From the NCBI RefSeq assembly GCF_002019705.1, contig NZ_KV917377.1, forward strand, positions 3,098,565 through 3,162,564: 64,000 nt of DNA. The letters are read 5' to 3'. This document shows positions 4,641 through 44,217 of the stretch, in pieces. The position numbers and the translations under genes were made by a program. This stretch comes from Shouchella patagoniensis (GTDB lineage Bacteria; Bacillota; Bacilli; Bacillales; Bacillaceae_D). Within the stretch, counting starts at the first letter, position 1; each line of letters starts with the position of its first letter. Below the pieces are notes generated by a model. That model was not told the origin of the DNA. It searched no databases and was given only the letters and a program-made list of their open reading frames with translations.

Positions 4641-5013
4641 CTGTTTGATAATTATTGTTATAAATTGTTAGAAACAACAGTTTCAAAAAACAGTAAACAC
4701 CCTAATTCATATTTGGATTAGGACTGTTCTATGTGATTTTAAATTAACCGCTCTCATTCACGCTACCTTTAAGCAATAATAGACCTCATTCATAGAATAG
4801 CTTACCTTTTTTTAGTAGTTAGTTATGGAATTACGGTAAAAAAAGTAAAACTTAGAAATGAAGCAGACGGTAAGACTATGTAATCATCAAATTGAAAGCG
4901 AAACCGTTTTAGTTAATTGTTTTTAAGAAGATGTGATGATTGTGTAAATGAAGCCAATCTTTGTTCAATCCGTGTTTAAATGAACGTACATTCTAAGGAG
5001 GAGGCAATTCAGC
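4641..5013. other. Non-coding gap before the ugp-like operon
   Basis: AT-rich region without a credible gene. It holds a bipartite inverted repeat (AACAGT 4689-4694 / ACTGTT 4723-4728 around CCTAAT 4701-4706 / ATTAGG 4717-4722) and a weak cre-like half (TGAAAGCG at 4893-4900, three mismatches to the consensus overall). The promoter of the downstream operon must lie here but I cannot assign -35 and -10 boxes with confidence. Confidence 0.4.
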
Positions 5014-6117
5014 ATGAAGCAAGTTGAGTTGGTAGGAATATCGAAATCCTATGATAAACAAAAGAATGTTCTTAATGAAATCAACGTATCGATTAAAAAA
5101 GGAGAGTTCTTTGTATTAGTGGGACCATCGGGTTGCGGCAAAAGCACATTACTTCGTATGGTCGCTGGACTTGAAGAAATTACTGGTGGGACATTGCTAC
5201 TAAACGGACAAGAAGCAAATATGTTGGTACCAAAAGATCGAAATCTATCGATGGTTTTTCAGAATTATGCGCTGTACCCTCATCTCACGGTAGAACAGAA
5301 TATTTTATTTGGTCTTCATGCCAAAAAGGTGAACAAAATGGAACAACAAAGACGGATAGAAGAGGCAGCAAAGATGATGGGTCTAGAGGATCTATTAACA
5401 CGAAAGCCAAAAGAACTGTCAGGAGGTCAGAGGCAACGAGTCGCATTAGCACGCGCGGTTGTTAGTGAAGCACCCCTTTGCTTGATGGATGAACCATTAT
5501 CAAATTTGGATGCTAAACTACGTGCTCATATGAGAATTGAAATTCGAAGGTTGCAACGTAAGCTTGGATTAACAATGATTTATGTGACACATGACCAAGT
5601 AGAAGCGATGACGATGGGTGACCGAATTATGGTATTAAATGACGGTGTCATTCAGCAAATAGGAAGTCCGATTGACTTATACAATAAGCCAGAAAATCAG
5701 TTTGTAGCGACTTTTATCGGTTCACCAAAGATGAATACGGCAGAAGTTTTTATTAATCACAATAAGAAAGAATTAGAAATTAAAGATTCGCTCGTTTTAC
5801 CATTGCCAGAAAATTGGACAGAATTAGTCGATCAAGCAGTAATCGGCATTCGGTCTGAACATATTCAATATGAACAGGGTAAGGTTAGCCATTATTTAGA
5901 GGTCGCAAGTGTGGAACAACTTGGCAATGAGACGTTGATTGCTTTTATTGTTGGTAATGAGTTTTGGACAGCTAAATGGCCGGGACAGTGGTCAATTAAA
6001 ACAGGAGACCAGGTTCCAGTTAGATTAGATTTTAATCATTTCCATTTTTTTGATTCCAAGAGCGGAGGATTGCTTCAGTCGGCAAGAGCACAATCGATGC
6101 AAGAGGTTGTTTTATGA
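5014..6117 (+). CDS. ugpC: Sugar/glycerol-phosphate ABC importer ATPase, UgpC/MsmX type
   Basis: A 367-residue cytoplasmic ATPase. Visible motifs are Walker A GPSGCGKST, the Q-loop (VFQNYALYPH), signature LSGGQRQR, Walker B LMDEPLSNLDAKLR and the switch His in VTHDQ, followed by a C-terminal TOBE/regulatory domain from about residue 240. It has the length and layout of UgpC, MalK and MsmX. It opens an operon with two permeases and a UgpB-like receptor, with a 4-bp ATGA overlap to the next gene. It is the only sugar-importer ATPase in the window, although four permease pairs are encoded, so it may energise several of them. AAGGAGGAGG precedes the ATG. Confidence 0.9.
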   Translation: MKQVELVGISKSYDKQKNVLNEINVSIKKGEFFVLVGPSGCGKSTLLRMVAGLEEITGGTLLLNGQEANMLVPKDRNLSMVFQNYALYPHLTVEQNILFGLHAKKVNKMEQQRRIEEAAKMMGLEDLLTRKPKELSGGQRQRVALARAVVSEAPLCLMDEPLSNLDAKLRAHMRIEIRRLQRKLGLTMIYVTHDQVEAMTMGDRIMVLNDGVIQQIGSPIDLYNKPENQFVATFIGSPKMNTAEVFINHNKKELEIKDSLVLPLPENWTELVDQAVIGIRSEHIQYEQGKVSHYLEVASVEQLGNETLIAFIVGNEFWTAKWPGQWSIKTGDQVPVRLDFNHFHFFDSKSGGLLQSARAQSMQEVVL

Positions 6118-7049
6118 GTCAGTTAGAAAAGAGAGTCACCTCTTCAGATCGATTGTTTCAGAGACAAAAGCAAAAACAAGGACGCTTGAACTTTGGAAAA
6201 GGAATGCTTTTTTTGCTGCCATCGTTATTTCTGTTTAGTGTTTTCTTGTTTTATCCAATGGCTAGAACACTCTACCTAAGCTTCTTTTTAACGGATAATC
6301 GTGGTATGGCGACTGTTTTTGTTGGTTTTGATAACTTTTCTCGCATTTTTTCTTCTGACATCTTTGTTAAATCACTTACGTCGACATTCTTATTTGTTCT
6401 TTATACCGTACCAGGCACCATTATTATTGCGTTATTTCTAGCGATTCTAGCAAATGAGAAGCTTAAGGGTGTTGGCGTTTTTAGAATGATTTTTTCTTCA
6501 ACAATGGGTATCTCAGTTGCTGCGGCATCCGTTTTTTGGTTGTTTTTATTCCATCCAAGTTTAGGGTTTTTAAATCAAATACTTCGTTGGCTTGGTGTCG
6601 ATGCAATTGGGTGGTTGACTGACCCTAATTGGGCACTATTTTCAGTCTCGATATCAACGATATGGATGAATATTGGCTTTACGTTTCTAATAATGCTCGG
6701 TGGCCTTCAGTCGATTGACCGTTATTTGTACGAATCGGCCGATATTGACGGAGCTGGTTATTTTTATAAATTGCGTAGAATTACGATTCCGATGCTGTCT
6801 CCAACCTTATTTTTTGTAGTGACTGTTACAATGATTAATGCGTTTCAAACATTTGGGCAAATTGATATGTTAACAAGAGGCGGGCCACAAAATGAGACCA
6901 ACTTACTCGTTTATTCTATTTACCGGGAAGCCTTTGTTAATTATCAATACGGAACGGCTAGTGCACAGGCAGTGATCTTATTTGCGATTATTTTAATTAT
7001 GACACTCATTCAATTTAAGCTTGGTGAAAAGAAGGTGCATTACCAATGA
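6114..7049 (+). CDS. ugpA: Glycerol-3-phosphate-type ABC permease, UgpA-like
   Basis: A 311-residue inner-membrane permease with about six hydrophobic spans after a basic, polar N-terminus of 30 residues, and the EAA loop ESADIDGAGYFYKLRRITIP. It overlaps its neighbours by 4 bp at both ends (ATGA), so the genes are translationally coupled. The assignment to glycerol-3-phosphate or glycerophosphodiester transport rests on gene order with UgpC, UgpE and UgpB homologues and on two glycerophosphodiester phosphodiesterases at the end of the operon; the permease itself would not distinguish this from another sugar. Confidence 0.82.
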   Translation: MSQLEKRVTSSDRLFQRQKQKQGRLNFGKGMLFLLPSLFLFSVFLFYPMARTLYLSFFLTDNRGMATVFVGFDNFSRIFSSDIFVKSLTSTFLFVLYTVPGTIIIALFLAILANEKLKGVGVFRMIFSSTMGISVAAASVFWLFLFHPSLGFLNQILRWLGVDAIGWLTDPNWALFSVSISTIWMNIGFTFLIMLGGLQSIDRYLYESADIDGAGYFYKLRRITIPMLSPTLFFVVTVTMINAFQTFGQIDMLTRGGPQNETNLLVYSIYREAFVNYQYGTASAQAVILFAIILIMTLIQFKLGEKKVHYQ

Positions 7050-7864
7050 TGATGACATGGAAACGAAAACTGCTTTTTTACTTACTTCTTACTGTGTCTG
7101 CAGTTGTTTTGTTTGCACCGGCCATTTTAGCTTTTTTAATGAGCTTTATGACAAGTCAAGACACCCTTACAGGGCAAATAATTCCAACAGTTTGGACGTT
7201 GGAAAACTACATTCAAGCTTTCCAACGTTTTCCACTTTTAAACTATTTGCTTAATAGTTTAATCGTTTCTCTTGTCATAATGCTGGGACAGTTAATTCTG
7301 TGTAGTCTTGCTGCGTATGCTTTTGTGTTTTTAAAGTTCAAAGGACGTGACACTTTGTTTTTTGTCTTTATTGCAACGATGATGATTCCGTTTGAAGCCT
7401 CTATTATCCCTAATTTTCAAACGATACGTGAACTAGGATTATTAAATACATATCCAGGTCTAACATTGCCGTTTTTTGCAATAGCGTTTGGTACTTTTTT
7501 ATTGCGACAGACGTTTAAACAAATTCCGATTGAATTAAAAGAAGCGAGTCAAATTGCTGGAATTGGTGATTTCAAATTTTATTTAACGGTTGTACTTCCA
7601 GTGGCGCGGACAAGCCTTGTAACACTTGGTATATATGGTTTTCTTACTTCGTGGAACATGTATTTATGGCCTTTGCTCGCTACAACAAATGATTCAGTGC
7701 GGACGGTTCAAATTGGCTTAAAACAGTTGCAGTCGCAAGAAACATTAAATCAATGGGGGGTTGTTATGGCAGGTGCAGTTATTGTTATTCTGCCAACATT
7801 AATTCTACTATTTTTAGGTCAGAAAAAACTTCAGCGAGGTCTTGCTGAAGGAGCAATTAAATAA
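7046..7864 (+). CDS. ugpE: Glycerol-3-phosphate-type ABC permease, UgpE-like
   Basis: A 272-residue permease with six hydrophobic spans. Its EAA loop reads EASQIAGIGDFKFYLTVVLP, in which the usually conserved Asp of the EAAxxDG core is replaced by Ala; the fold is otherwise standard. Three consecutive ATG codons are available at 7046, 7049 and 7052; the first overlaps the stop of ugpA. It pairs with the UgpA-like protein to form the channel. The receptor gene starts 31 bp downstream. Confidence 0.82.
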   Translation: MMMTWKRKLLFYLLLTVSAVVLFAPAILAFLMSFMTSQDTLTGQIIPTVWTLENYIQAFQRFPLLNYLLNSLIVSLVIMLGQLILCSLAAYAFVFLKFKGRDTLFFVFIATMMIPFEASIIPNFQTIRELGLLNTYPGLTLPFFAIAFGTFLLRQTFKQIPIELKEASQIAGIGDFKFYLTVVLPVARTSLVTLGIYGFLTSWNMYLWPLLATTNDSVRTVQIGLKQLQSQETLNQWGVVMAGAVIVILPTLILLFLGQKKLQRGLAEGAIK

Positions 7865-7895
7865 AAAACAATGTGTTGTGAGGAGAGATGGGACA

Positions 7896-9218
7896 ATGAA
7901 AAGGAAATTGGGATTATTAGTTAGTACCGCAAGCTTGGTTGCCTTAGTGGCATGTGGATCAGCGGATTCAACGGGTGGTGCAGATGGGAAAACAGTCGTA
8001 ACATTTTGGCACTCTATGGGTGGACCGGCTCAAGTAGCATTGGATCAAATTGTTTCCTCTTATAATGAATCGCAGGATGAAGTACAAGTAAATGCAGAAT
8101 TCCAAGGAACGTATGAGGAGTCTTTGCCAAAGTTCCATAGTGTAGGTGGGACTGAAGATGCACCAACTATTATACAAGTGCAAGAAATCGGCTCGATGTC
8201 GATGATTAATAGTGGAAATATTGAACCAATCCAACGCTTTATTGATGAGGAAGGTTACGATATGAGTGGCTTAGAAGAGAATATTACGAATTACTATAAT
8301 ATTGATGATCAGTTTTATTCAATGCCATTTAATTCATCTACGCCTGTTATGTACTACAACAAAGATGCATTTACCGCTGCGGGACTTGATCCAGAAGCCC
8401 CACCTGAGACATATGAAGAGATTGAAGAAGCAAGTAAGAAGATAATAGAAGCAAACGATGGGATGCGAGGTTTTGCACTTCAAGCTTACGGCTGGTTATT
8501 TGAAGAGTTGTTAGCGAATCAAGGTGGACATTTGCTAAACAATGAAAATGGGCGTTCGGAGTTAGCTACAGAGGTTGCTTTTGACGATGAAAAGGGTAGA
8601 TCAATCTTTCATTGGGTGGAACGAATGATTGAGGAAGAAACATTTATGAATTATGGCACAAACGCCGACAATATGGTGGCAGGATTTTTGGCCGGAGAAG
8701 TTGCAATGTTTATGCAATCATCGGCTCAGTCACGGGATGTAATTGATAATGCTCCGTTTGAGGTGGGGGTTGGTTTTATACCATATCCTGAAAACGCAGA
8801 ACGAGAAGGGGTGGTCATCGGGGGCGCTAGCCTTTGGATGTCTACTGGAAAAGATGCAAAAGAGCAAGAAGCTGCATGGGATTTTATGAAGTATATGGCA
8901 ACGCCTGAAATTCAAGCAGAATGGCATGTAGGGACTGGTTATTTTGCAATAAATCCTGCAGCGTATGAAGAACAAGTTGTACAGGATGCGTATGTGGATA
9001 TGCCGCAGTTACAAACGGCTGTGCAACAACTCCAAGAAACAACACCTTCTGTCGCTACTCAAGGAGCGTTAATGGATATGATTCCTGAAGAAAGGAAAAT
9101 TATTGAGACGGCACTTGAATCTGTTTATAACGGGGAAGATGCAGATCAAGCATTTGAGGATGCTGTGGACCAAGTAAATGCAGCAATTGAGCAGTCAAAT
9201 AAAGCGAGAGGGAATTAA
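7896..9218 (+). CDS. ugpB: Glycerol-3-phosphate/glycerophosphodiester-binding lipoprotein, UgpB-like
   Basis: A 440-residue solute-binding protein. The N-terminus MKRKLGLLVSTASLVALVAC gives a lipoprotein signal with lipobox LVAC. The start of the mature protein carries the UgpB-type strand VVTFWHSMGGPAQVALDQIV and SYNESQDEVQVNAEFQGTYE, which is the best evidence for a UgpB relative. I choose the ATG at 7896, which follows GAGGAGAGATGGG; an earlier in-frame start at 7842 would overlap ugpE and spoil the signal peptide. It would capture glycerol-3-phosphate or glycerophosphodiesters outside the cell and hand them to UgpA/UgpE. Confidence 0.86.
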   Translation: MKRKLGLLVSTASLVALVACGSADSTGGADGKTVVTFWHSMGGPAQVALDQIVSSYNESQDEVQVNAEFQGTYEESLPKFHSVGGTEDAPTIIQVQEIGSMSMINSGNIEPIQRFIDEEGYDMSGLEENITNYYNIDDQFYSMPFNSSTPVMYYNKDAFTAAGLDPEAPPETYEEIEEASKKIIEANDGMRGFALQAYGWLFEELLANQGGHLLNNENGRSELATEVAFDDEKGRSIFHWVERMIEEETFMNYGTNADNMVAGFLAGEVAMFMQSSAQSRDVIDNAPFEVGVGFIPYPENAEREGVVIGGASLWMSTGKDAKEQEAAWDFMKYMATPEIQAEWHVGTGYFAINPAAYEEQVVQDAYVDMPQLQTAVQQLQETTPSVATQGALMDMIPEERKIIETALESVYNGEDADQAFEDAVDQVNAAIEQSNKARGN

Positions 9219-9292
9219 AGAGAAGAAGGGGAGCGGTGTAATTTATCGTTGCCCTTTCTTTAGGAGTAGGACAGCTGTAAAGGGGGAGGCGT

Positions 9293-10165
9293 GTGAGGAG
9301 TAGAAGGTGGGTGTTTTTTTTATCATCTAGTGTGTTACTGGTAGTGGTGCTAAGTTATTTCATAAACAAAACGAGTATGGAAACAAGCTGGGTGCCGGCA
9401 AGTAAGCAAGAAGAGAATGTTTTAACGGATCATTCTATACAAATCTTTGCTCATCGAGGAGCTAAAGATCGGGCAAATGAAGCAACAATAGCTGCCTACG
9501 ATCTGGCTGCGCAGGATGGAGTCGATGCGCTTGAGATTGATTTACGTATGACAAAAGATGGAGTTCTTGTTGCAATGCATGATCAAACGATTGATCGGAC
9601 TACAAATGGGGAAGGAAAGGTGGAGACGTATACGTTGGAAGAGTTAACATCATTTCAAACGATCGGCTATTATAATGAAGAAGAAACAAGAGAACCAATT
9701 CCGACTCTTGAAGAAATTCTTAAACGTTATGGCAAAGATGAAACGTATTATATTGAAACAAGGCTTGTTGCAGGTGAATTGGCGATGGAAGAAGAGCTAA
9801 TTTCGTTATTGGAACAACATGATCTTATGAAGGACAATCGCGTGATGCTCCAGTCGTTTTCAGAGGAAAGCCTTAAGAAATTAAATGACTTGGTTCCGGA
9901 AGTCCCATTAACACAGCTTTTTCGCAGAGGGGAGTTTGACTTAAATAAAGCATTAGCATCACCTTATCCAGCGATTGGAATTGAATCCGGCGATTTACTT
10001 AAGAAGGATGTGGAGGCTTTGCAGTTAGTCGAGAAAGAGGTTCATGTTTATTTTACTGATTATAAAACGGAGCAGGAAGAACAAAAGCGAGTAGTGAAAT
10101 ATGGAATTGATGGTCTATTTACAGATCAGATTCAATTTACAAGTTCATTAGTTGATGAACGGTAA
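9293..10165 (+). CDS. Membrane-anchored glycerophosphodiester phosphodiesterase
   Basis: A 290-residue GDPD with one N-terminal hydrophobic span (about residues 6-23) that acts as a signal anchor, so the catalytic domain should face outside. Family motifs are visible: FAHRGAKDRANEAT (the first catalytic His and Arg), the metal-binding ALEIDLRMTKDG, and the second His in AMHDQTIDRTTNG. The enzyme cuts glycerophosphodiesters to glycerol-3-phosphate plus an alcohol. The GTG start follows AAAGGGGGAGG. It sits 74 bp behind ugpB in the same orientation, so hydrolysis outside the cell could feed the importer. Family members usually read ENT after the first HRG; here it is NEAT. Confidence 0.88.
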   Translation: MRSRRWVFFLSSSVLLVVVLSYFINKTSMETSWVPASKQEENVLTDHSIQIFAHRGAKDRANEATIAAYDLAAQDGVDALEIDLRMTKDGVLVAMHDQTIDRTTNGEGKVETYTLEELTSFQTIGYYNEEETREPIPTLEEILKRYGKDETYYIETRLVAGELAMEEELISLLEQHDLMKDNRVMLQSFSEESLKKLNDLVPEVPLTQLFRRGEFDLNKALASPYPAIGIESGDLLKKDVEALQLVEKEVHVYFTDYKTEQEEQKRVVKYGIDGLFTDQIQFTSSLVDER

Positions 10166-10215
10166 TAAATGTAGGTTAATGAACAGCAGTTGCTGATAAT
10201 AGGAGATGGATAAAA

Positions 10216-10974
10216 GTGACAGCGATTTATGGACATAGAGGTGCAGCTGGTACACATCCAGAAAATACGCTTTTGAGTTTTGAAGAAGCATTAAATAATG
10301 GAGTCGATGGAATTGAACTTGATGTTCAAATAACAAAAGACGGCGAGCTTATTGTTATGCATGATCCGACAGTTGACCGGACTACGAGTGGGTCTGGCTA
10401 TGTTAACGAAATGACACTTGCGGAAATTAAACAACTCAGTGCAGGAAGCGAATTCAGTCACATGATAGACTATGATCCAAATACATGGCCATCAATAAAA
10501 GTCCCAACATTGAAAGAAACATTAAATCTTATTCGACCTCATCGAATTGAATTAAACATTGAATTTAAACCGAACTTGGCTCTTCATAAAGGGATTGAAC
10601 AGATTGTATTAAAAGAGGTTGAGTCCTACGGACAAGGGTTAAAGGTCAGTTATTCATCCTTTCATTTACCAATCTTAATGAGGCTGAAAGCACTCAACAA
10701 AGAGGTGGAGACGGCATTTCTTGTAAATCAAAATGTCCCATTTCCACGGGATTATTTGGAGACTTTTAATCTGGCTACTTTCCATGTCTCTAAGAAACCG
10801 CTATTAGGAGACAGTTTTTTTGAGGCAGAGGAGCTGCTAGAGAAAATAAGAGTGTGGACTGTCAATTGTGATGAAGACATAAACAAGTTACTACAAAAAA
10901 ATGTTAAAGCCATTATGACTGACTTTCCAAAGCGAGCAATTGCGTTGAGACGTACATTTAAAAAACAGGTTTGA
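10216..10974 (+). CDS. Cytoplasmic glycerophosphodiester phosphodiesterase
   Basis: A 252-residue GDPD without signal peptide. Motifs are GHRGAAGTHPENTLLSF, GIELDVQITKDGELIVMHDP and TVDRTTSG, covering both catalytic His residues and the Glu/Asp metal ligands. The GTG start at 10216 follows AGGAGATG. As the last gene of the ugp-like operon it would hydrolyse imported glycerophosphodiesters inside the cell, complementing the anchored enzyme encoded just before. The stop codon lies inside a perfect 40-bp palindrome that forms the terminator. Confidence 0.9.
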   Translation: MTAIYGHRGAAGTHPENTLLSFEEALNNGVDGIELDVQITKDGELIVMHDPTVDRTTSGSGYVNEMTLAEIKQLSAGSEFSHMIDYDPNTWPSIKVPTLKETLNLIRPHRIELNIEFKPNLALHKGIEQIVLKEVESYGQGLKVSYSSFHLPILMRLKALNKEVETAFLVNQNVPFPRDYLETFNLATFHVSKKPLLGDSFFEAEELLEKIRVWTVNCDEDINKLLQKNVKAIMTDFPKRAIALRRTFKKQV

Positions 10975-11023: not shown

Positions 11024-12634
11024 TTATTCTACTACATCTTGGTAACGAGTGTACGCTTCTCTTTGGATGGACATATACTCCTCAAGTCCAAGAGACTCAA
11101 CTTGGGCTACGTAGTCATCCCAGTCATCAAAAGATTTTCTACCTGTTATAAACGCATCTTCTGTTTCATTTATAAACGTTTCTAAGTCACTTCCCATTGA
11201 ATCACGGAATTGTTGTTCTTCTCTAGTGTAATTAAATCCATTCCATACTTCTTCAACAGCGTCGGGCTCTGCTAACTCGCCGTTTTCAATAGAGTTAGGA
11301 TAAGCTTCGGAACCTTTGAAGTAATGTTGTTGAACATAACCAGGATAGCTTCCCCCAAGCCATGTAATATAATCGGCTAGTGCTTGGTCTTGTGTTAATC
11401 CATCGGGATTATCTGTAATTAACTCAGTAAAGTCGAGTGTTCCATCATCATTCTCTACATAAGTTGTTCCTTCTTCTCCCATAAAGTAAAAGCGTGCACC
11501 TTCCTCACTAAAAAAGTAATCCATCCATCGGAGTGTCGCTTCTGGATGCTCATTCTTATCGGTAATCGCAAATGCACCCACATGAACGAGTGGCGGCTTT
11601 ATATGGCTATATAGTTTATCGCCATGTGGACCTTCCAATGCTTCCCCACCTGAAAATGTATCTTGATTCATTAGTGTTTGTGGGTTACTCGTGATAACCG
11701 CTCCTAACTGACCGGCTGCGCCTTTTGCCAGCAATTGTGAGCCGTCATGTGTGTAGACTTCGTGGTCTATTAGTTCTTCAGAGTAAAGTTTATGCAGGTA
11801 CTCAAGAAATTCTTTGTACTTGTCTTCAGTTCGGAAAAATCGTAAATCGTCTGTTCCTGGATCAACGTCAATGAATTTATGACCGACCCCTCTCGTTCCA
11901 AAACCCCATGCACCTTGGAGTTGACCACGTATTTCAGTTATATTTGTGCCTGAAAAGGGGATGGCTTCTCCATCAGCTAAGTTTGGATTATCTTTGACCG
12001 CTTTCAAAAACTCATAAAATTCGTCGGTTGTTGTCGGTCTATCCATACTAACTTCTTCAAGCCATTCATCATTAATCCATAACGGTACACCAATCAGCAT
12101 TGGTAGGAAATCAGGTGTATAGTAAGAAGGGAATGAATAAATATGACCATCAGGCATTGTTAAGCCTTTTCGCATGTCAGGATGTTTTTCAAGAGCTGCA
12201 TGAAAATTTGGGGCGAATTCTTCAATCATGTCATCAAGAGGTATAAGAATGCCCTGCTCCCCGTAAGTGGCTAAGTCGCTTGATGAAAGCCTAGCAGAAT
12301 AAAAAGCGTCAGGGTAATCGCCACTTGTTAGAACTAGGTTACGGCGCTCTGATAAGCCATCAAATGCATTTAATTGGAAATCAACTTTAATGTCTGTCAT
12401 ATCTTCGTACGTGCTCCACACATAAGTTTCTTCAAAATTATTTGAATTTGGTTCTGATTTACCTGTGAAGAAAGTGAGTTCAATCGGTTCTTTTACAATA
12501 GGAAAACCAGATTCATTGACAAGTTCGGCATTCGTACTTTCTTCTGTGCTGCCAGCATCTTCTCCTGAATTGGAACAGCCTGCTACAAAAGCAAGTGCAA
12601 GGACAGAGAAAAGGATTGTCTTTATTTTTTTCAT
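11024..12634 (-). CDS. LplA/LipO-type solute-binding lipoprotein (receptor 1)
   Basis: A 536-residue extracellular binding protein of the family that serves LplB/LplC permeases. The signal peptide ends in lipobox VAGC. The mature part is acidic, with GFPIVKEPIELTFFTG, GDYPDAFYSA and KGLTMPDGHIYSFPSYY. It is clearly paralogous to the receptor at 16265 (same opening motif and long shared blocks such as RKGLTM-DGHIYSFPS), so one permease pair probably has two receptors. It is a single-gene transcript read away from the GlpP operon and carries the same leader element (12667-12730). Glycerophosphodiester ligand is inferred from that shared control and the neighbouring GDPD. Confidence 0.87.
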   Translation of the reverse strand: MKKIKTILFSVLALAFVAGCSNSGEDAGSTEESTNAELVNESGFPIVKEPIELTFFTGKSEPNSNNFEETYVWSTYEDMTDIKVDFQLNAFDGLSERRNLVLTSGDYPDAFYSARLSSSDLATYGEQGILIPLDDMIEEFAPNFHAALEKHPDMRKGLTMPDGHIYSFPSYYTPDFLPMLIGVPLWINDEWLEEVSMDRPTTTDEFYEFLKAVKDNPNLADGEAIPFSGTNITEIRGQLQGAWGFGTRGVGHKFIDVDPGTDDLRFFRTEDKYKEFLEYLHKLYSEELIDHEVYTHDGSQLLAKGAAGQLGAVITSNPQTLMNQDTFSGGEALEGPHGDKLYSHIKPPLVHVGAFAITDKNEHPEATLRWMDYFFSEEGARFYFMGEEGTTYVENDDGTLDFTELITDNPDGLTQDQALADYITWLGGSYPGYVQQHYFKGSEAYPNSIENGELAEPDAVEEVWNGFNYTREEQQFRDSMGSDLETFINETEDAFITGRKSFDDWDDYVAQVESLGLEEYMSIQREAYTRYQDVVE

Positions 12635-12666: not shown

Positions 12667-12730
12667 AAAAAACCCTAATCAACACCAAATAAATGGCGCT
12701 AATTAGGGTTTTCTCCGGTCGACTCCACCC
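12667..12730 (-). promoter_or_regulatory. Candidate GlpP-controlled leader/terminator (minus strand)
   Basis: Read on the minus strand, TATTAT (12740-12735) is a likely -10, then GGGTGGAGTC (12730-12721), a GAGAAAACCCTAAT block, and a 17-bp stem with wobble pairs (12710-12694 against 12687-12671) followed by a T-run, 33 bp before the receptor start. The same arrangement occurs in mirror image at 12961-13041. GGGT at the 5' end can pair with ACCC of the terminator's left arm, so terminator and anti-terminator forms are possible. GlpP, encoded at 13864, is known in B. subtilis to antiterminate such leaders in response to glycerol-3-phosphate; assignment to it here is inference. Confidence 0.7.
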
Positions 12731-12740
12731 GTATATAATA

Positions 12741-12960
12741 GAGCTGTAATACATTTAGTATCTGCTAGAACAAATGAAAAGTCAATAACGAAATAATAAA
12801 TAGATTGTAAATTATAAAATAATATAAGTTGACAAAGAAAGCGCATTTATATATTTTTTAAGTAGATTCCTTCTTTGACTTAGAAAAAGTTAATAAGGAA
12901 TTTACAATGCTTTCATCAAGAGATTACATTTATCATTTATGATGAATGTAAAGAAGTGAA
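12741..12960. other. AT-rich divergent promoter region
   Basis: About 220 bp between the two mirrored leader elements, very AT-rich. It must carry the -35 regions of both divergent transcripts; I see no gene, no clear consensus -35 box and no other repeat. Confidence 0.4.
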
Positions 12961-13041
12961 TATTGTTATGGGTGGAGTCCATTGAGAAAACCCTAATAAA
13001 TGTAGGCACAATAAATGTGCCCTCGTTTATTAGGGTTTTTT
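12961..13041 (+). promoter_or_regulatory. Candidate GlpP-controlled leader/terminator (plus strand)
   Basis: TATTGT (12961-12966) is a likely -10, followed by GGGTGGAGTCC (12970-12980), GAGAAAACCCTAAT, and a terminator: AACCCTAATAAA (12989-13000) pairs with TTTATTAGGGTT (13026-13037), an inner GGCACA/TGTGCC stem (13005-13010/13016-13021), then a T-run. It precedes the HAD-GlpP-permease-receptor-GDPD operon. The first 20-odd bases and the outer stem match the leader on the other strand at 12667-12730, which argues for a shared regulator. GlpP is encoded in this operon, so autoregulation is likely. Confidence 0.72.
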
Positions 13042-13062
13042 CGTGGACAAAAGGGGGCTAAA

Positions 13063-13857
13063 ATGAAGCAATACGAACATTACTTTTTTGATTTGGACGG
13101 CACTCTAATTAATGGGGAGGGTTTATTACCTTATGCTAAGGAGCTAATTTCTTGCTTGCGTAAACAGAAAAAACAGGTATTTTTCCTCACCAATCACCCT
13201 GTTCGATCAAGACGTGTGTTAACAAATGATTTACAAGAACTTGGTTTAGACATTTTTTATGACGAATTAATTACACCTATTATGGGATTAAAGGAATACT
13301 TTGCTCCTAGGAATAAGGACAGCAGGAAATTGTATGTAGCGGGGTCAAAGATGATAAAGGAAGAGCTTCGCGAACAGGGGTTTACTGTGGTAGATGAACA
13401 TGCATCAGAAGAACCTAAGAACATTGCTGTTGTTCTAGGAATGACCCCGGACTTAACGTACAACCAGTTGCAAGTTGGCTTTTGGCTGATGCAACAAGGC
13501 GCTGAGCTTATATTGTTAAATGGGGACTTGCTATGTCCTCATCCAAAAGGGTTTTTAATTGATACAGGCTCTCTGGCACGGGTGCTGGAACATAAGGACA
13601 AAAAGCCTGTTATTGTTGGGAAACCCTCGTATTGGATGCAACAAGCGTTGCTACGTGCAATGCGCGGGAATGTCGAAAATGCTGTCATTATTGGAGATTC
13701 GTTAACAAGTGATATCGGAATAGGGAATTCATTAAACATTGATACAGTGCTAGTCTGTTCGGGAGTTACATCTATCCACCAGATGCAGCATGCGGTACAA
13801 CTACCTACAGTTATTTTTCCGTCTGTTCGGGAGATCTATCAATTGATAAAGGGGTAA
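13063..13857 (+). CDS. HAD-IIA (NagD-like) phosphatase
   Basis: A 264-residue haloacid-dehalogenase phosphatase. Motif I FFDLDGTLING holds the nucleophile Asp and the acid/base Asp, motif II is FFLTNHPVRS, the Lys of motif III is in VIVGKPSYWM and motif IV is IIGDSLTSDIGIG; the cap is of the C2 (IIA) type. Members include sugar-phosphate, p-nitrophenyl-phosphate and glycerol-3-phosphate phosphatases. Next to GlpP and a GDPD, a role in dephosphorylating glycerol-3-phosphate or a head-group phosphate is plausible but not proven. I start at the ATG at 13063 after GGGGGC; an earlier in-frame ATG at 13015 lies inside the terminator stem. Confidence 0.85.
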   Translation: MKQYEHYFFDLDGTLINGEGLLPYAKELISCLRKQKKQVFFLTNHPVRSRRVLTNDLQELGLDIFYDELITPIMGLKEYFAPRNKDSRKLYVAGSKMIKEELREQGFTVVDEHASEEPKNIAVVLGMTPDLTYNQLQVGFWLMQQGAELILLNGDLLCPHPKGFLIDTGSLARVLEHKDKKPVIVGKPSYWMQQALLRAMRGNVENAVIIGDSLTSDIGIGNSLNIDTVLVCSGVTSIHQMQHAVQLPTVIFPSVREIYQLIKG

Positions 13858-13863
13858 AGCCGT

Positions 13864-14394
13864 ATGTTTAATGAACAATTCATCCATGCAATTACAAGCA
13901 AGCAACAAGAGGAAAGATGCCTTCTGTCAGATGTCAATACTGTTTTCTTATTAAATGGAAATATGCATACCTTGCCAGACCAAGTATTTAGCTATCAGAA
14001 AAAGGGAAAGGTTGTTTTTGTTCATGTCGATTTGGTTTCTGGGATTGAAACCCATACAGCTGATGGCATGAGATATATAGCAGAAGTAATCGCTCCTGAT
14101 GGAATTATTAGCACGAGAAGTCAGTCGATTATTCAAGCGAAGAAGGTTGGACTAAAAACGGTCCAACGCGTCTTCTTAATCGATACTCATGCGATGGAAA
14201 AAGCAATTCAGACTGTAAATAAAATTAAGCCTGACGCAGTCGAAGCGATGCCTGGGTTGATGCCTAGGGTGATACAAGAACTTGTTGGAATGACATCTGT
14301 GCCAATCGTTGCCGGGGGACTGTTTAAGACAAGAGCAGAAATGGACCTGGCTCTAAAGGCTGGAGCGGTTGCTGTCTCCGCTAGCATCATTTAA
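13864..14394 (+). CDS. glpP: GlpP, glycerol-3-phosphate-responsive RNA antiterminator
   Basis: A 176-residue small TIM-barrel-like protein matching GlpP along its length: VFLLNGN, VFVHVDLVSGIE, DGIISTRSQSIIQAKK, QRVFLIDTHAM, KPDAVEAMPG and the phosphate-binding end VAGGLFKTRAEMDLALKAGA. In B. subtilis GlpP binds the leaders of glp mRNAs when glycerol-3-phosphate is present and lets RNA polymerase pass a terminator. Here it is second in an operon for glycerophosphodiester uptake rather than beside glpFK, and two matching leader-terminators lie at 12667-12730 and 12961-13041. It may be the only GlpP or a local specialised copy. Confidence 0.92.
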   Translation: MFNEQFIHAITSKQQEERCLLSDVNTVFLLNGNMHTLPDQVFSYQKKGKVVFVHVDLVSGIETHTADGMRYIAEVIAPDGIISTRSQSIIQAKKVGLKTVQRVFLIDTHAMEKAIQTVNKIKPDAVEAMPGLMPRVIQELVGMTSVPIVAGGLFKTRAEMDLALKAGAVAVSASII

Positions 14395-14411: not shown

Positions 14412-15359
14412 ATGGAGAGCAAGATCGAGCATACTCGTCAGAAAGTTAAAAAACCGCAAAAAAGAAGATGGAGTATGATAAAGCGAAACTGGGATTTATA
14501 TTTACTCGTTCTTCCAGTTATTTTGTACTTTCTTATCTTTAAATACTATCCAATGTATGGTGTTCAGATTGCTTTTAAAGATTTTATAGCAGTTGAAGGT
14601 ATCTGGGGAAGTCAGTGGATAGGTTTTGATCATTTTGTTCGATTTTTTGAAAGTTTTTATTTTGAACGCCTCCTGTCTAATACAATTGGACTTAGTTTAT
14701 ATAATCTAGCTATTGGTTTTCCAATACCTATTATATTGGCACTCTTAATCAATGAAATTCGTATTAAGAAAGCAAAAAGCTTTGTTCAAACCGTTACGTA
14801 TGCACCCCATTTCTTATCAACAGTGGTTGTGGTGGGTATGCTCTTCTTGCTTTTGTCTCCTACTGGTATAGTTAATCAGTTTCTTAGTTTGTTTGGAATT
14901 TCTGAAACCTCTTTTATGACGCAGCCTGAATGGTTTAAAACAACTTATGTATTCTCAGGAGTGTGGCAGCAGATGGGCTGGAGTTCGATTATCTACTTAG
15001 CTGCATTAGCAGGTATTGATCCCCAGCTACATGAAGCTGCGAAAATAGATGGTGCAAGTCGATTAAGAAGGATCTGGCATGTGAATCTCCCAGGGATACG
15101 TTCAACAATTATTATTTTATTAATTTTACAAACTGGTAGCATTGTAAGTGTTGGTTTTGAAAAAGTGTTTCTAATGCAAAATCAATTAAACATGGAAGCG
15201 TCTGATGTCATTGCTACTCATATATACCGAACTGGTATTGCGGGTGCCCAGTATAGTTACTCAGCGGCGATTGGTTTATTTGAGTCAGTGATTAATTTTA
15301 TTCTTTTAGTCATTGTGAATTATACTGCGAAAAAAACAAGCCAAACGAGCTTGTGGTAA
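14412..15359 (+). CDS. ABC permease, LplB type
   Basis: A 315-residue permease with six hydrophobic spans, a basic N-terminus of about 30 residues and the EAA loop EAAKIDGASRLRRIWHVNLP. The opening segment DLYLLVLPVILYFLIFKYYPMYG is characteristic of the LplB/YtcP group that works with long LplA/LipO-type receptors. AAAGGAGG precedes the ATG. Its place between GlpP and a GDPD suggests a glycerophosphodiester or teichoic-acid-derived substrate. There is no ATPase in this operon. Confidence 0.87.
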   Translation: MESKIEHTRQKVKKPQKRRWSMIKRNWDLYLLVLPVILYFLIFKYYPMYGVQIAFKDFIAVEGIWGSQWIGFDHFVRFFESFYFERLLSNTIGLSLYNLAIGFPIPIILALLINEIRIKKAKSFVQTVTYAPHFLSTVVVVGMLFLLLSPTGIVNQFLSLFGISETSFMTQPEWFKTTYVFSGVWQQMGWSSIIYLAALAGIDPQLHEAAKIDGASRLRRIWHVNLPGIRSTIIILLILQTGSIVSVGFEKVFLMQNQLNMEASDVIATHIYRTGIAGAQYSYSAAIGLFESVINFILLVIVNYTAKKTSQTSLW

Positions 15360-15371
15360 GGGGGGGTTAAG

Positions 15372-16250
15372 GTGAAACAAAGTGCCGGAGATCGGATGTT
15401 TGGAATTGGGGTTTACATCATTATCGGATTGATTACGTTAATCGTTCTTTATCCACTTGTTTATGTACTAAGTGCATCATTTAGTGATCCAGGAGCTGTA
15501 CTAAGAGGGGAGTTATGGCTTTTTCCAATTGATCCAACTTTAGATTCCTACTCAAGAGTGTTTCAGAACGAAGATATTTGGACGGGTTTTAGAAACACGT
15601 TCCTTTATACAACTCTTGGGACTGCGTTAAATCTGGGGCTGTCTATTATGATTGCTTATCCCCTCTCAAGAAGGGACTTTTATGGTAGAAGTCTTTTGAC
15701 GATTTTTCTTGTCTTCACAATGTTTTTTAGCGGTGGAATGGTGCCTACCTATTTACTTGTTCGTGACTTAGGGATGTTAAATACGATATGGGCGGTTATT
15801 GTTCCAGGTGCAGTGTCGGTTTATAACGTAATCATTATCCGGACATTTTTTCAAAACATTCCAAACGAGCTGCGCGAATCGGCTGACCTTGACGGCTGCT
15901 CGAATATCCAGTATTTACTAAAAATATTGTTACCTTTATCAAAACCCGTTATCGCGGTGATGATCTTGTTTTATGGGGTTAGCCAATGGAACGCATTTTT
16001 TGATGCACTCATTTACTTAACAAACCGAGACTTGTTTCCATTACAGTTGTTTTTAAGAGAAATGTTAATTCAAGGACAATTATCAGATATGGTACAAGTA
16101 AGTGACTCAACGCTTGACGCACACGCGCTAACGGTAGAAGGAATTAAGTATGCAGTTGTAATTGTGGCTAGTTTACCTATGCTCATTTTATATCCGTTCT
16201 TGCAACGCTTTTTTGTGAAAGGTGTCATGATTGGTTCGATTAAAGGTTAA
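15372..16250 (+). CDS. ABC permease, LplC type
   Basis: A 292-residue permease of the LplC/YtcP group with six spans and the EAA loop ESADLDGCSNIQYLLKILLP. The GTG start at 15372 follows a long G-rich Shine-Dalgarno (GGGGGG). It pairs with the LplB-like protein encoded 12 bp upstream. The C-terminal end PFLQRFFVKGVMIGSIKG is the conserved tail of this group. Receptor follows 14 bp downstream. Confidence 0.87.
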   Translation: MKQSAGDRMFGIGVYIIIGLITLIVLYPLVYVLSASFSDPGAVLRGELWLFPIDPTLDSYSRVFQNEDIWTGFRNTFLYTTLGTALNLGLSIMIAYPLSRRDFYGRSLLTIFLVFTMFFSGGMVPTYLLVRDLGMLNTIWAVIVPGAVSVYNVIIIRTFFQNIPNELRESADLDGCSNIQYLLKILLPLSKPVIAVMILFYGVSQWNAFFDALIYLTNRDLFPLQLFLREMLIQGQLSDMVQVSDSTLDAHALTVEGIKYAVVIVASLPMLILYPFLQRFFVKGVMIGSIKG

Positions 16251-16264
16251 TAAGGGGGACAACA

Positions 16265-17851
16265 ATGAAAAAGAGGTGGATGCTAGCAGCATCGTTTGCT
16301 GCACTGGCAATCGCGGGGTGTTCAGGGGAAGAAGTCGAGCAGAAATTGGATGAAGAAGAGCGAATAAAAAATGTGAATGCAGAAGGGTTTCCTATTGTAA
16401 ACGAAGCAATTGATATGGAGTTGTATACTGGCCAGGCACCAAATAATTTACAAAACTATGAAGAACGGCTTATTTGGAAGACCTATGCAGATCTCTCTAA
16501 CATAAATGTTGATTTTAATGAAGTGCCATTCGATGGACTCGAAGAAAAAGTGAACCTAACTCTTGCTAGTGGAGAATACCCTGATGCCTTTTATTCTGCA
16601 GGGATCAATTCTCAGCAATTGACGGAATACGGAGCCCAAGGTGTGTTTATCAAATTGGATGAACTAATCGAAGAATATGCTCCTAATTTAACAAAATTAA
16701 TGGAGGAATACCCACAAGTTCGTAAAGGGTTAACGATGGCTGACGGGCACATTTACTCGTTTCCTTCTTTCTATGACCCTGACTTTACTTCGATGGTAGT
16801 TGGTACGCCAATATGGCTAAACCAACACTTTTTAGAAGAGCTTGATATGGATGAACCAACGACAATTGACGAGTATTATCAATACTTAAAAGGTGTGAAA
16901 GAAGAAGAGTTGGGGATTCCATACAGTGGAACAAGCGTCGATAATTTTATAATGCAAATACGTGGATCGTGGGGACTCGGTACAAGGGGTCTTGCTCATA
17001 AGTTTATAGATATTAACCCTGAAACGGAAGAGCTTCGGTTTACAAGGACAGATGAGCACTATAAAGAAGTACTTGAGTTTGTGCATCAACTGTGGTCCGA
17101 AGGATTAATTGATAAAGATATTTACACAATGACGAGTCAGGAATTTTATGCTAAAGGCGAAATCGGTAATATTGGATCTATGATGATTTATAACCCTGTT
17201 ACACAAATGAATCAGAATGCAGAAGCTTACGAAGGTATGGCTGCGCTTGAGGGTCCTTATGGTGATTCATTTTACACGCATGTAAAGGCAGCCCTTGTAC
17301 ACGTAGGATCGTTTGTCATTACTGAAAAAATGGAAAATCCAGAGGCAGCAGTACGCTGGGTTGATCATTTTTACGGAGAAGAAGGTGCGTTGCTCCAATT
17401 TATGGGGGTTGAAGGCGAGACTTTTGAAGTGGCTGATGATGGAAGTTATGAATTTACGGAAGAAATATCAAATCACCCTGACGGATTAACCCAGGATCAA
17501 GCAGTTGCACAGCATATGACATGGCTTGGTGGAAGGGTGCCTTCTTTTGTAAAATCAAATTATTTTACTGGCTCTGAAGGATTGCCAAATGCAATGGAAG
17601 CAGGTGAAAAAGTTAAGGAATCAATCCCGGAAATATGGAATTATTTTAATTACACAGCAGAAGAGCTTCAGTTTAAACAATCAATCGGAACAGATATAGA
17701 AACATTTATTCTAGAAAATGAAGCAGCGTTTGTTACTGGTAAGAACTCCTTTGACGAGTGGGAGGAATACATCGAACAAGTAAACAATCTTGGTGCAGAA
17801 GAATACTTAGCGATAGAAGAGGCTGCATATGAACGATACATTAAAAATTAA
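16265..17851 (+). CDS. LplA/LipO-type solute-binding lipoprotein (receptor 2)
   Basis: A 528-residue binding lipoprotein; the signal peptide ends with lipobox IAGC. It shares GFPIVNEAIDMELYTGQ, VDFNEVPFDGL, GEYPDAFYSAG and RKGLTMADGHIYSFPSFY with receptor 1 at 11024, showing a duplication. It is encoded directly after the permease pair and before a GDPD, so it is the operon's own receptor; receptor 1 may widen ligand range. Strongly acidic composition fits an extracellular protein of an alkaliphile. Confidence 0.88.
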   Translation: MKKRWMLAASFAALAIAGCSGEEVEQKLDEEERIKNVNAEGFPIVNEAIDMELYTGQAPNNLQNYEERLIWKTYADLSNINVDFNEVPFDGLEEKVNLTLASGEYPDAFYSAGINSQQLTEYGAQGVFIKLDELIEEYAPNLTKLMEEYPQVRKGLTMADGHIYSFPSFYDPDFTSMVVGTPIWLNQHFLEELDMDEPTTIDEYYQYLKGVKEEELGIPYSGTSVDNFIMQIRGSWGLGTRGLAHKFIDINPETEELRFTRTDEHYKEVLEFVHQLWSEGLIDKDIYTMTSQEFYAKGEIGNIGSMMIYNPVTQMNQNAEAYEGMAALEGPYGDSFYTHVKAALVHVGSFVITEKMENPEAAVRWVDHFYGEEGALLQFMGVEGETFEVADDGSYEFTEEISNHPDGLTQDQAVAQHMTWLGGRVPSFVKSNYFTGSEGLPNAMEAGEKVKESIPEIWNYFNYTAEELQFKQSIGTDIETFILENEAAFVTGKNSFDEWEEYIEQVNNLGAEEYLAIEEAAYERYIKN

Positions 17852-17874: not shown

Positions 17875-18585
17875 ATGACGATTGAAGCGATTGCTCATAG
17901 AGGTTATTCTACAAAGTACCCAGAAAATACACTTTCTGCTTATCAAGCAAGTATTGATTTAGGATTCTCTCATATTGAAATTGATGTCCATTTAAGCAAG
18001 GATGGCATCCCCGTCATTATGCATGATAAAACGGTTGACCGCACAACAGATGGAAGTGGACTTATTATTGACCACACGCTTAATGAGCTCCAGTCATTGA
18101 AAATGAAGGGCGGGGAGAGAATGCCTACGCTAGATGAAACGCTCGAACTGGCGAAGGATCAATGCAAAGTGGCAATTGAGCTTAAGCAAAGCAATGATAT
18201 GTACGAAGGACTTGAGAAGAAAGTGTACGAGTTAATTGTAGAGAAGGAAATGATTGATGCTGTGTATGTAAACTCATTTAACCATGAAGCGATAAGGAGA
18301 ATGAGGTCAATCGCTCCAGAACTTGAACTTGGCATTATTAAAGCAAAAGCAACTCCGGATCTTTTTCCATTGATGAAAGAAATAGGAGCTTCATCACTTG
18401 CAATGGAACTACCTTATTATAGCGATACTTTTGCTGATAAATGCAAGAATGAAGGCATTCAGCTAATTGTATGGCCTGTAGATACAATTGAAGCATGTAC
18501 AATGATGATTAAACGACAGAATGTCTTGTGTACTGTAAATGAATTAGAACAATTTAAAGCATATTACTATGAGAAAGAGGACTAG
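17875..18585 (+). CDS. Cytoplasmic glycerophosphodiester phosphodiesterase
   Basis: A 236-residue GDPD with AHRGYSTKYPENTLSAY, HIEIDVHLSKDGIPVIMHDK and TVDRTTDGSG, giving both catalytic His residues and the acidic metal ligands; no signal peptide. It is short and close to bacterial UgpQ in size. As last gene in the GlpP-led operon it would release glycerol-3-phosphate from imported diesters; that product is also the inducer sensed by GlpP, which would close a positive loop. This is the third GDPD in 9.3 kb. Confidence 0.9.
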   Translation: MTIEAIAHRGYSTKYPENTLSAYQASIDLGFSHIEIDVHLSKDGIPVIMHDKTVDRTTDGSGLIIDHTLNELQSLKMKGGERMPTLDETLELAKDQCKVAIELKQSNDMYEGLEKKVYELIVEKEMIDAVYVNSFNHEAIRRMRSIAPELELGIIKAKATPDLFPLMKEIGASSLAMELPYYSDTFADKCKNEGIQLIVWPVDTIEACTMMIKRQNVLCTVNELEQFKAYYYEKED

Positions 18586-43878: not shown

Positions 43879-44123
43879 TTAAAATCCTCCAATTTATTAT
43901 TTTAAAATCATTTATCTTGTTTCATCTCGTTACGGATTTATGGTAAAGGGCAGAATGAAAATTGCAATCTCTTTGTAATAAAGACTGACAAAGAATTTAG
44001 ATGAAATTCAAAATAGACTGAAAAAATACGTTAGATTACCTGACGAAAAGGTAGAAACACGAATGAAATCTATGTAATTCTAGGAGGAACAAAAAAATAA
44101 AGGTTCTTTTTAGAACAAAAAAG
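43879..44123. other. Divergent promoter region before the riboswitch
   Basis: About 245 bp, AT-rich, without a credible gene. It must hold promoters for the APC permease and the riboswitch transcript; I see no strong -35/-10 pair. A small hairpin GGTTCTttttAGAAC (44102-44116) lies just before the riboswitch. Confidence 0.4.
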
Positions 44124-44217
44124 CTTTCTAGGGTTCCGTTGCGTGTAGCGTAAGGCTGGTCCGAGAGAAGGCGTGTGGCAACCGCCGCATACACGGAAGG
44201 ATAAAAGCCTGGGAGAC
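44124..44217 (+). ncRNA. Guanidine-I (ykkC) riboswitch aptamer
   Basis: The characteristic conserved blocks are in order: CTAGGGTTCCG, CTGGTCCGAGAG, the ACACGG stem arm, and AAGGATAAAAGCCTGGGAGA in two parts at 44197-44216. These are the hallmarks of the ykkC subtype 1 aptamer, which binds guanidinium. Its 3' end overlaps the left arm of a terminator, the usual arrangement for an ON switch: guanidine stabilises the aptamer and lets transcription proceed into the carboxyguanidine deiminase and guanidine carboxylase genes. Confidence 0.93.

Follow-up and report, generated by a model that had tools for sequence, protein, structure and literature searches.

In B. subtilis, GlpP is described as an activator of the promoters of glpD, glpT and glpFK that works by glycerol-dependent antitermination at a terminator in the 5' UTR (passages of PMC9604022). 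The closest known counterparts of the leaders reported here are those glpD, glpFK and glpT leaders, for which the same passages give a promoter, a GlpP site and an intrinsic terminator in the 5' UTR. GlpP binding to the glpD leader mRNA appears as the title of a 1998 paper by Glatz in the reference list of PMC3997798. A review passage says that GlpP 'binds the antiterminator', so earlier papers may already describe part of the mechanism; the passages of the same review also describe LicT and SacY, and HutP as reading repeated NAG triplets and so preventing terminator formation (PMC7430163). No defined antiterminator structure for GlpP was found in the abstracts and passages covered.

GlpP is a PF04309 protein related to the solved structures 3kts and 1vkf, unlike the BglG, SacY and LicT proteins. 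The RAT of BglG, SacY and LicT is an RNA hairpin that a protein stabilises and that overlaps a terminator's left arm. The hairpin proposed below would overlap a left terminator arm in the same way, but its boxes and helix are presumably unlike RAT. HutP is a protein unrelated to GlpP. Our proposal shares with HutP the principle of a protein that reads repeated triplets against a terminator, and it differs from HutP targets in having just two GAG boxes, close together within one helix.

The locus lies in a stretch of 64,000 nucleotides of the Shouchella patagoniensis genome (the window). At positions 12667–13041, two divergent transcripts both carry GGGTGGAGTC, a variable linker of four or five nucleotides and GAGAAAACCCTAAT, followed by an intrinsic terminator. 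The features are as follows.

12970..12973, + strand: GGGU, 5' strand of the putative antiterminator helix (letters, covarying helix, fold of the truncated transcript)
12974..12977, + strand: GGAG, purine box 1 (conserved among relatives)
12984..12986, + strand: GAG, purine box 2 (comparison with relatives)
12990..12993, + strand: ACCC, the strand common to both pairings, with 12970–12973 or with the right terminator arm (letters, folds)
12984..13042, + strand: intrinsic terminator hairpin and U-run, the latter ending at about 13041 (fold)
12727..12730, - strand: GGGU of the divergent leader, read from 12730 to 12727 (letters, pattern search, truncated fold)
12723..12726, - strand: GGAG, purine box 1 of the divergent leader (letters)
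12713..12715, - strand: GAG, purine box 2 of the divergent leader (letters)
12706..12709, - strand: ACCC, shared strand of the divergent leader (letters, truncated fold)
12668..12713, - strand: intrinsic terminator hairpin of the divergent leader (fold)
11024..12634, - strand: ABC solute-binding lipoprotein (SBP_bac_1), behind the - leader (Pfam)
13063..13857, + strand: HAD-IIA phosphatase, behind the + leader (NCBIfam TIGR01460, 133.8 bits, cut-off 100.15)
13864..14394, + strand: GlpP (PF04309, 188.3 bits, cut-off 27), placed by trees in the second GlpP branch described below; proposed cognate regulator
14412..17851, + strand: two ABC permeases and a solute-binding protein (Pfam)
17875..18585, + strand: GDPD, glycerophosphodiester phosphodiesterase (Pfam PF03009)

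A sequence-only reading had picked out the two mirrored elements, and both were found in place. Each folds as a terminator, with -38.7 kcal/mol (z -7.3) on the + strand and -34.0 kcal/mol (z -6.9) on the - strand, and none of 200 shuffles was equally stable in either case. The outer stem AACCCTAAT/ATTAGGGTT is common to both terminators and the inner stem and loop differ, as that reading had said. It had also given both transcripts the same 5' motif with four variable bases; the motif is present in both copies, and the four-base linker is right for the + copy (CATT) but not for the - copy, which has five (GACCG). Its '-10-like box' directly before the motif fared less well: a consensus scan found no sigma-70-type promoter at either start, so the box is weak and the transcription starts are putative. 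By fold and scan, the terminators adjoin the regulated genes upstream on both the + and the - side. The two GAG boxes occupy the base of the terminator and the letters directly before it, the same as in glpF and glpD leaders. When the genome of 4.65 Mb was searched with GGGTGGAGN{2,9}GAGAAAACCC, a pattern composed from the window leaders and related leaders, exactly two matches were obtained, both at the window elements, and the backwards pattern gave none.

Three other candidates were set aside. The second exact match of GGTGGAGTCNNNNGAGAA (C1:3276267) lies inside a 167-aa ORF, cupin-like by eye, and was taken as chance. A two-mismatch match in genome G031 spans the start of an ORF and was dropped. 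A candidate at window position 9206 (stem 22.0, before a GDPD gene) was excluded from the leaders because no box-to-arm helix could be seen in it by eye.

The ACCC of the left arm can pair either with the right arm or with the upstream GGGU, and the two pairings are mutually exclusive. When the window transcripts were cut 6 nt past ACCC, before the right arm, they folded into GGGU:ACCC with an inner 2-bp UC:GA helix (-5.9 and -7.4 kcal/mol). The GGGU:ACCC helix has 4 bp and closes a loop of 16–17 nt, and it is weak without protein. In the full-length leaders the terminator fold wins. Free RNA should thus terminate, and read-through would need a protein that holds the early hairpin.

The + operon runs from the HAD-IIA phosphatase through GlpP, two ABC permeases and a solute-binding protein to the GDPD. 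That it encodes GlpP, as the sequence-only reading had it, was borne out by the PF04309 score, and the protein also matches the related solved structures 3kts and 1vkf. No BglG-type gene was found among the ten neighbouring proteins scanned with Pfam. We consider, with a probability of about 0.78, that the window elements are glycerol-3-phosphate-dependent attenuators of the GlpP antitermination type, which would control a glycerophosphodiester scavenging regulon and would most likely be served by the GlpP of their own operon. Without ligand, the left arm (ACCC...) would pair with the right arm (...GGGU) and transcription would end at the U-run. The GlpP of the + operon, loaded with glycerol-3-phosphate (assumed to be the ligand by analogy), would bind the two GAG boxes and hold the short GGGU:ACCC helix, which consumes the left arm and blocks the terminator. 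Both divergent operons would then be read through, the solute-binding protein on one side and the phosphatase, GlpP, ABC transporter and GDPD on the other, and the cell would take up and hydrolyse glycerophosphodiesters in step with its handling of glycerol-3-phosphate. Here we infer the binding of the protein, its ligand, the antiterminating direction of the effect and the transcription starts.

This genome has another GlpP, which sits behind glpD (locus L020) with a leader of its own and is 33% identical to the window GlpP. The exact window motif is absent before this glpD and is confined to the two window sites, but the glpD leader is a diverged form (GACCU..GGGUC) with the layout unchanged. 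Of the earlier expectation that the motif would precede other glp genes, the layout thus held at glpD and the exact letters did not; the latter were not taken as defining because letters vary among GlpP leaders. Upstream of glpK in this genome (L020 3960–4380) the finder recognised no leader, unlike the glpF leaders of genus relatives.

The presence of a canonical, glpD-linked GlpP raises the question of which protein would serve the window leaders, and an unlikely but not negligible answer is that they are targets of this canonical GlpP, or of both. The letters lend this some support, since the HAD-side leader of four genus relatives contains GAGACGATGAG, a core that is also found in the canonical glpD leaders of four other members of the genus. 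The distribution argues against it. PF04309 matches were found in all 13 genus genomes and the window-type GlpP (80–100% identity) in 7 of them, and the leader pattern occurs in exactly those 7, with two copies each. Six of the 7 genomes have the copies on opposite strands, separated by a few hundred bases, and G006 has them on two contigs. Since these leaders had already been read when the genus pattern was composed, what counts is that it is absent from the other 6 genomes and from elsewhere in each genome. The relatives retain the 5' motif and most of the outer stem but differ in loops and inner stems, which agrees with the conserved ends and diverged middles that had been read from the window alone.

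The same coupling was observed beyond the genus. In a tree of 83 GlpPs, 18 rows form a branch with the window type (support 100/99), and 16 of these have a HAD-IIA phosphatase within 9 kb, against none with HAD nearby among the remaining 65 canonical GlpPs; the positions of L073, L075 and the second GlpP of L081, on long branches, are unsure. An alignment search of 397 genomes of the order, an even sample drawn from a larger group, gave second-branch matches at E up to 1e-60 in 77 genomes. Forty further loci were fetched, their GlpPs being first classed by search score alone, and all 40 fell on the window side of a quick 123-row tree that carries long-branch warnings (58 rows in total, SH-aLRT 99; HAD nearby in 45 of the 58). 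In both trees, the window GlpP falls in this branch and not in the branch linked to glpF, glpK and glpD. The second branch is tied to HAD-IIA phosphatases, ABC transporters and GDPDs.

A broader pattern, GGGTRGAGN{2,9}GAGAN{0,3}ACCC, matched at 45 places in 37 of the 397 genomes. A leader place was present in 29 of the 77 genomes with a second-branch GlpP match versus 8 of the 320 without, and 34 of the 45 places have a second-branch glpP gene within 12 kb. The other 11 are about the number predicted by the backward-pattern control, which gave 12 matches by hand count of the table. Leaders near these glpP genes had been inspected before the pattern was framed, and its presence there is therefore partly built in; the informative results are its absence without the gene, its scarcity elsewhere and the matches near glpP in the previously unread genomes G167, G228, G286 and G354. 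The sequence-only reading had proposed to see whether motif and terminator co-occur with glp, ugp and GDPD genes. In the genome and its relatives they track the second-branch glpP with its HAD, ABC and GDPD context, but were found neither at the ugp-like operon of the window nor, with the exact motif, at glpD. The clustering near second-branch glpP genes and the restriction to 7 of 13 genus genomes speak for the GlpP of the window operon as the regulator.

In 51 second-branch loci, the finder called 60 non-canonical leaders (54 distinct) in 35 loci. The genes behind them are HAD phosphatases (15), solute-binding proteins termed Phn-like (14; in L105, L108, L117, L118, L121 and L127 by eye, from the neighbouring ABC parts), large secreted proteins (6), UgpB-like solute-binding proteins (4), GDPDs (4), GlpP itself (3, one doubtful) and unassigned genes (14). 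In the remaining 16 loci the finder recognised no non-canonical leader, and the pattern search finds one in three of them (L261–L263). Near-copies of the window leader precede HAD genes in other genera (L278, L281, L282 and L286), and L278, L281 and L282 group with the seven window-type rows in the quick tree, as a set of 10. The consensus of 40 second-branch leader rows, alignment A3, is GGGTAGAGAnnAnGAGAAnACCC; these rows are 38 assigned leaders, the doubtful L075 included, and the two window leaders. The 14 unassigned rows were left out of A3 and of the assigned-only test below, and were kept in the 54-leader test. The offset of the left arm varies by a few nucleotides among the leaders aligned in A3.

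Canonical leaders were collected with a rule that ignores the helix to be tested: two GAG boxes 2–9 nt apart, a terminator stem with U-run and a downstream ORF. Extraction around GlpP genes gave 134 rows, namely 55 glpD, 38 glpF, 4 glpK, 7 window-type HAD, 6 window-type SBP, 2 other leaders of L092 and 22 without a class. The 22 unclassed rows and the 2 L092 rows, which are outside the tested classes, were excluded from the canonical covariation test. A typical canonical leader reads AAGTTAATA...GTGAC-GGAGA-NNN-GGAGA-left arm, and the glpF, glpD and glpK leaders across Bacillales have the same order of parts, two GAG boxes and then the terminator. Two loci of the B. subtilis group (L136 and L137) have glpF and glpD leaders of this layout with GlpP in the same locus. 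For glpF and glpD, the comparison with B. subtilis leaders proposed earlier thus turned out well: these leaders share with those of the window the two boxes, the terminator and a helix in which the left arm pairs with the segment 5' of box 1. The window leaders differ from the canonical ones in lacking the AAGTTAATA-type 5' end, in preceding phosphatase, ABC transporter and GDPD genes, and in being linked to the other GlpP branch. Among the named loci, 34 of 39 with GlpP have a leader versus 9 of 41 without GlpP in the locus; 5 loci with GlpP but no leader and the 9 with a leader run against the coupling, GlpP having been sought within the locus only. These counts keep the misparses of the finder (for example, double entries in L137, L145 and L186; shifted boxes in L065, L067 and L107) and the L151 call at 7382, probably inside a gene. 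The named set is also partly non-independent, as L187 (Shouchella miscanthi) repeats the L064 genome (G012) or a near-copy of it, with the same glpF and glpD leaders.

Throughout these leaders, the segment 5' of box 1 tends to complement the first letters of the left terminator arm. The paired letters are UUGUG/CACAG or GGUC/GACC in the B. subtilis group, GCUG/CAGC in Brevibacillus, GUCA/UGAC in Listeria, AGCUG/CAGCU in Shouchella glpF, GACCU/AGGUC in one glpD leader of the genus and GGGU/ACCC in the window leaders; second-branch examples are CUAUGGCU/AGCCAUAG, CAAGGA/UCCUUG and AAGGU/ACCUU. A 5' segment that complements the left arm repeats the sequence of the right arm, as an antiterminator needs, whereas the terminator itself needs no such complementarity.

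For the covariation test, the best helix of the matched 5' and arm segments was compared with that of segments redistributed among the leaders by permutation. For 93 dereplicated canonical leaders, the matched mean was 10.34 versus 8.85 permuted (sd 0.22, z 6.8), and none of 1000 permutations reached it. For the named set (64 leaders from 80 loci), the values were 9.98 versus 8.00 (sd 0.29, z 6.8; 0/1000), and non-redundant sets of 84, 51 and 40 leaders gave z 6.5, 5.2 and 4.9 (0/1000 each). Separately, 52 glpD leaders gave z 4.5, 37 glpF leaders z 3.4, with at least 1 of 1000 permutations above the observed mean, and 4 glpK leaders z 1.0. For the 54 distinct non-canonical leaders near second-branch glpP genes, the matched mean was 11.39 versus 8.99 (z 7.1; 0 of 2000 permutations); non-redundant subsets of 32 and 25 gave z 4.8 and 4.9, and 40 assigned leaders z 3.9 (0/2000 each). 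No excess was observed when a segment further upstream was set against the arm (z -1.2 to -2.5) or the 5' segment against the loop (z -0.5 to -0.9). The reversed-arm control did show some excess (z 2.4 to 2.7, against 4.9–6.5 for the real pairing), so part of the covariation signal may be composition. Perfect 5-bp helices were found in 25 of 126 leaders versus 9.2 permuted. The best helix was shorter than 4 bp in 20/93, 19/64 and 9/54 leaders, some of them misparsed.

GGGU and ACCC are invariant within the window type, so the covariation comes only from the other leaders. As the window's version of the covarying helix, GGGU:ACCC gains comparative support as an antiterminator, and the pairing that had been read from the window letters is strengthened by the covariation of the corresponding helix in three leader sets and by the folds of the truncated transcripts. 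Taken with the shared canonical layout and with a leader type that tracks the neighbouring glpP, these comparisons of sequences favour the earlier proposal that the window leaders are GlpP RNA targets. The covarying helix offers a concrete target for mutation and a route to GlpP regulons from sequence. No description of the helix or of a second GlpP branch was found in the abstracts and passages that a literature search covered, and the helix may be partly known.

Complementary segments may also be read as DNA. On this account, which we regard as improbable, the GGGT...ACCC inverted repeat would serve a repressor or activator as its operator, with the hairpins acting as plain constitutive attenuators. 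Among the 126 leaders, the odd pair in helices with four of five Watson-Crick pairs was A-C in 21, G-U in 11 and another pair in 42 (permuted expectations 10.4, 5.7 and 34.0), a distribution that gives RNA pairing no preference over DNA pairing; the enrichment of A-C mismatches equals that of G-U, as expected of double-stranded DNA. However, the paired sequence changes freely, with 46 distinct 4-nt pairs among helices of at least 4 bp (G-U allowed), and the loop length is variable, unlike the fixed letters that a DNA-binding protein usually requires. The repeat also overlaps the terminator arm, and the linked regulator belongs to a family (GlpP) of known RNA binders.

An RNA that binds its ligand without protein, like a riboswitch or a T-box, would follow the same general logic of mutually exclusive hairpins, and we hold it to be very improbable at these leaders: their conserved part of about 25 nt is too small for a usual aptamer, and it tracks a protein gene. 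Rfam at curated thresholds matched the window only at a guanidine-I riboswitch, and the leaders were unmatched. With E relaxed to 5, five matches below threshold appeared in three leader-bearing loci; the only one touching a leader, mir-7180 on the strand opposite the glpD hairpin of L071 (27.1 bits versus 78), was taken as chance. GlpP is a classic antiterminator, yet its leaders matched no Rfam model in the window and these three loci. That the two elements are ordinary terminators, alike through a local inverted duplication that left about 24 common letters in mirrored positions, is scarcely credible, as both copies were kept in 7 genomes while loops and flanks diverged, and equivalent leaders precede different genes in other families.

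With GlpP as the reader of these RNAs, a wider picture may be drawn, to which we give a little less than even odds. The GlpP family would have at least two branches, both old, that recognise RNA by different codes, and the second would run a separate glycerophosphodiester and phosphoester scavenging regulon, perhaps with another ligand; all targets would share one covarying helix around two GAG boxes, with the paired letters free and the boxes fixed. If so, the second branch with its GDPD, ABC and HAD genes would give many Bacillales a further regulon, for scavenging organic phosphate and carbon, and cells that carry two GlpP-leader pairs would offer a natural test of specificity.

Several further features were observed. 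The guanidine-I riboswitch lies at window 44117–44217 on the + strand (88.1 bits, gathering score 63). The mirrored pair is adjoined by an operon for a UgpC-type ABC transporter, followed by two GDPD-like genes (window 5014–10974, + strand), the second of which, 10216–10974, was named by eye. Before this operon at 5014, no GlpP leader was recognised by eye or by the leader script. An inverted repeat, CCCTAAT...ATTAGG, lies at about 4690–4735 upstream of it, without a U-run; it resembles the outer stem of the window terminators and is possibly a decayed or unrelated element. Large secreted-looking proteins of 635–1003 aa recur behind second-branch leaders (L092 6192–8105 on the - strand, L255, L266, L269, L271 and L279). 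GlpP-type leaders also stand directly before second-branch glpP genes, at about 7887 in L286 and about 8661 in L290, which suggests autoregulation.
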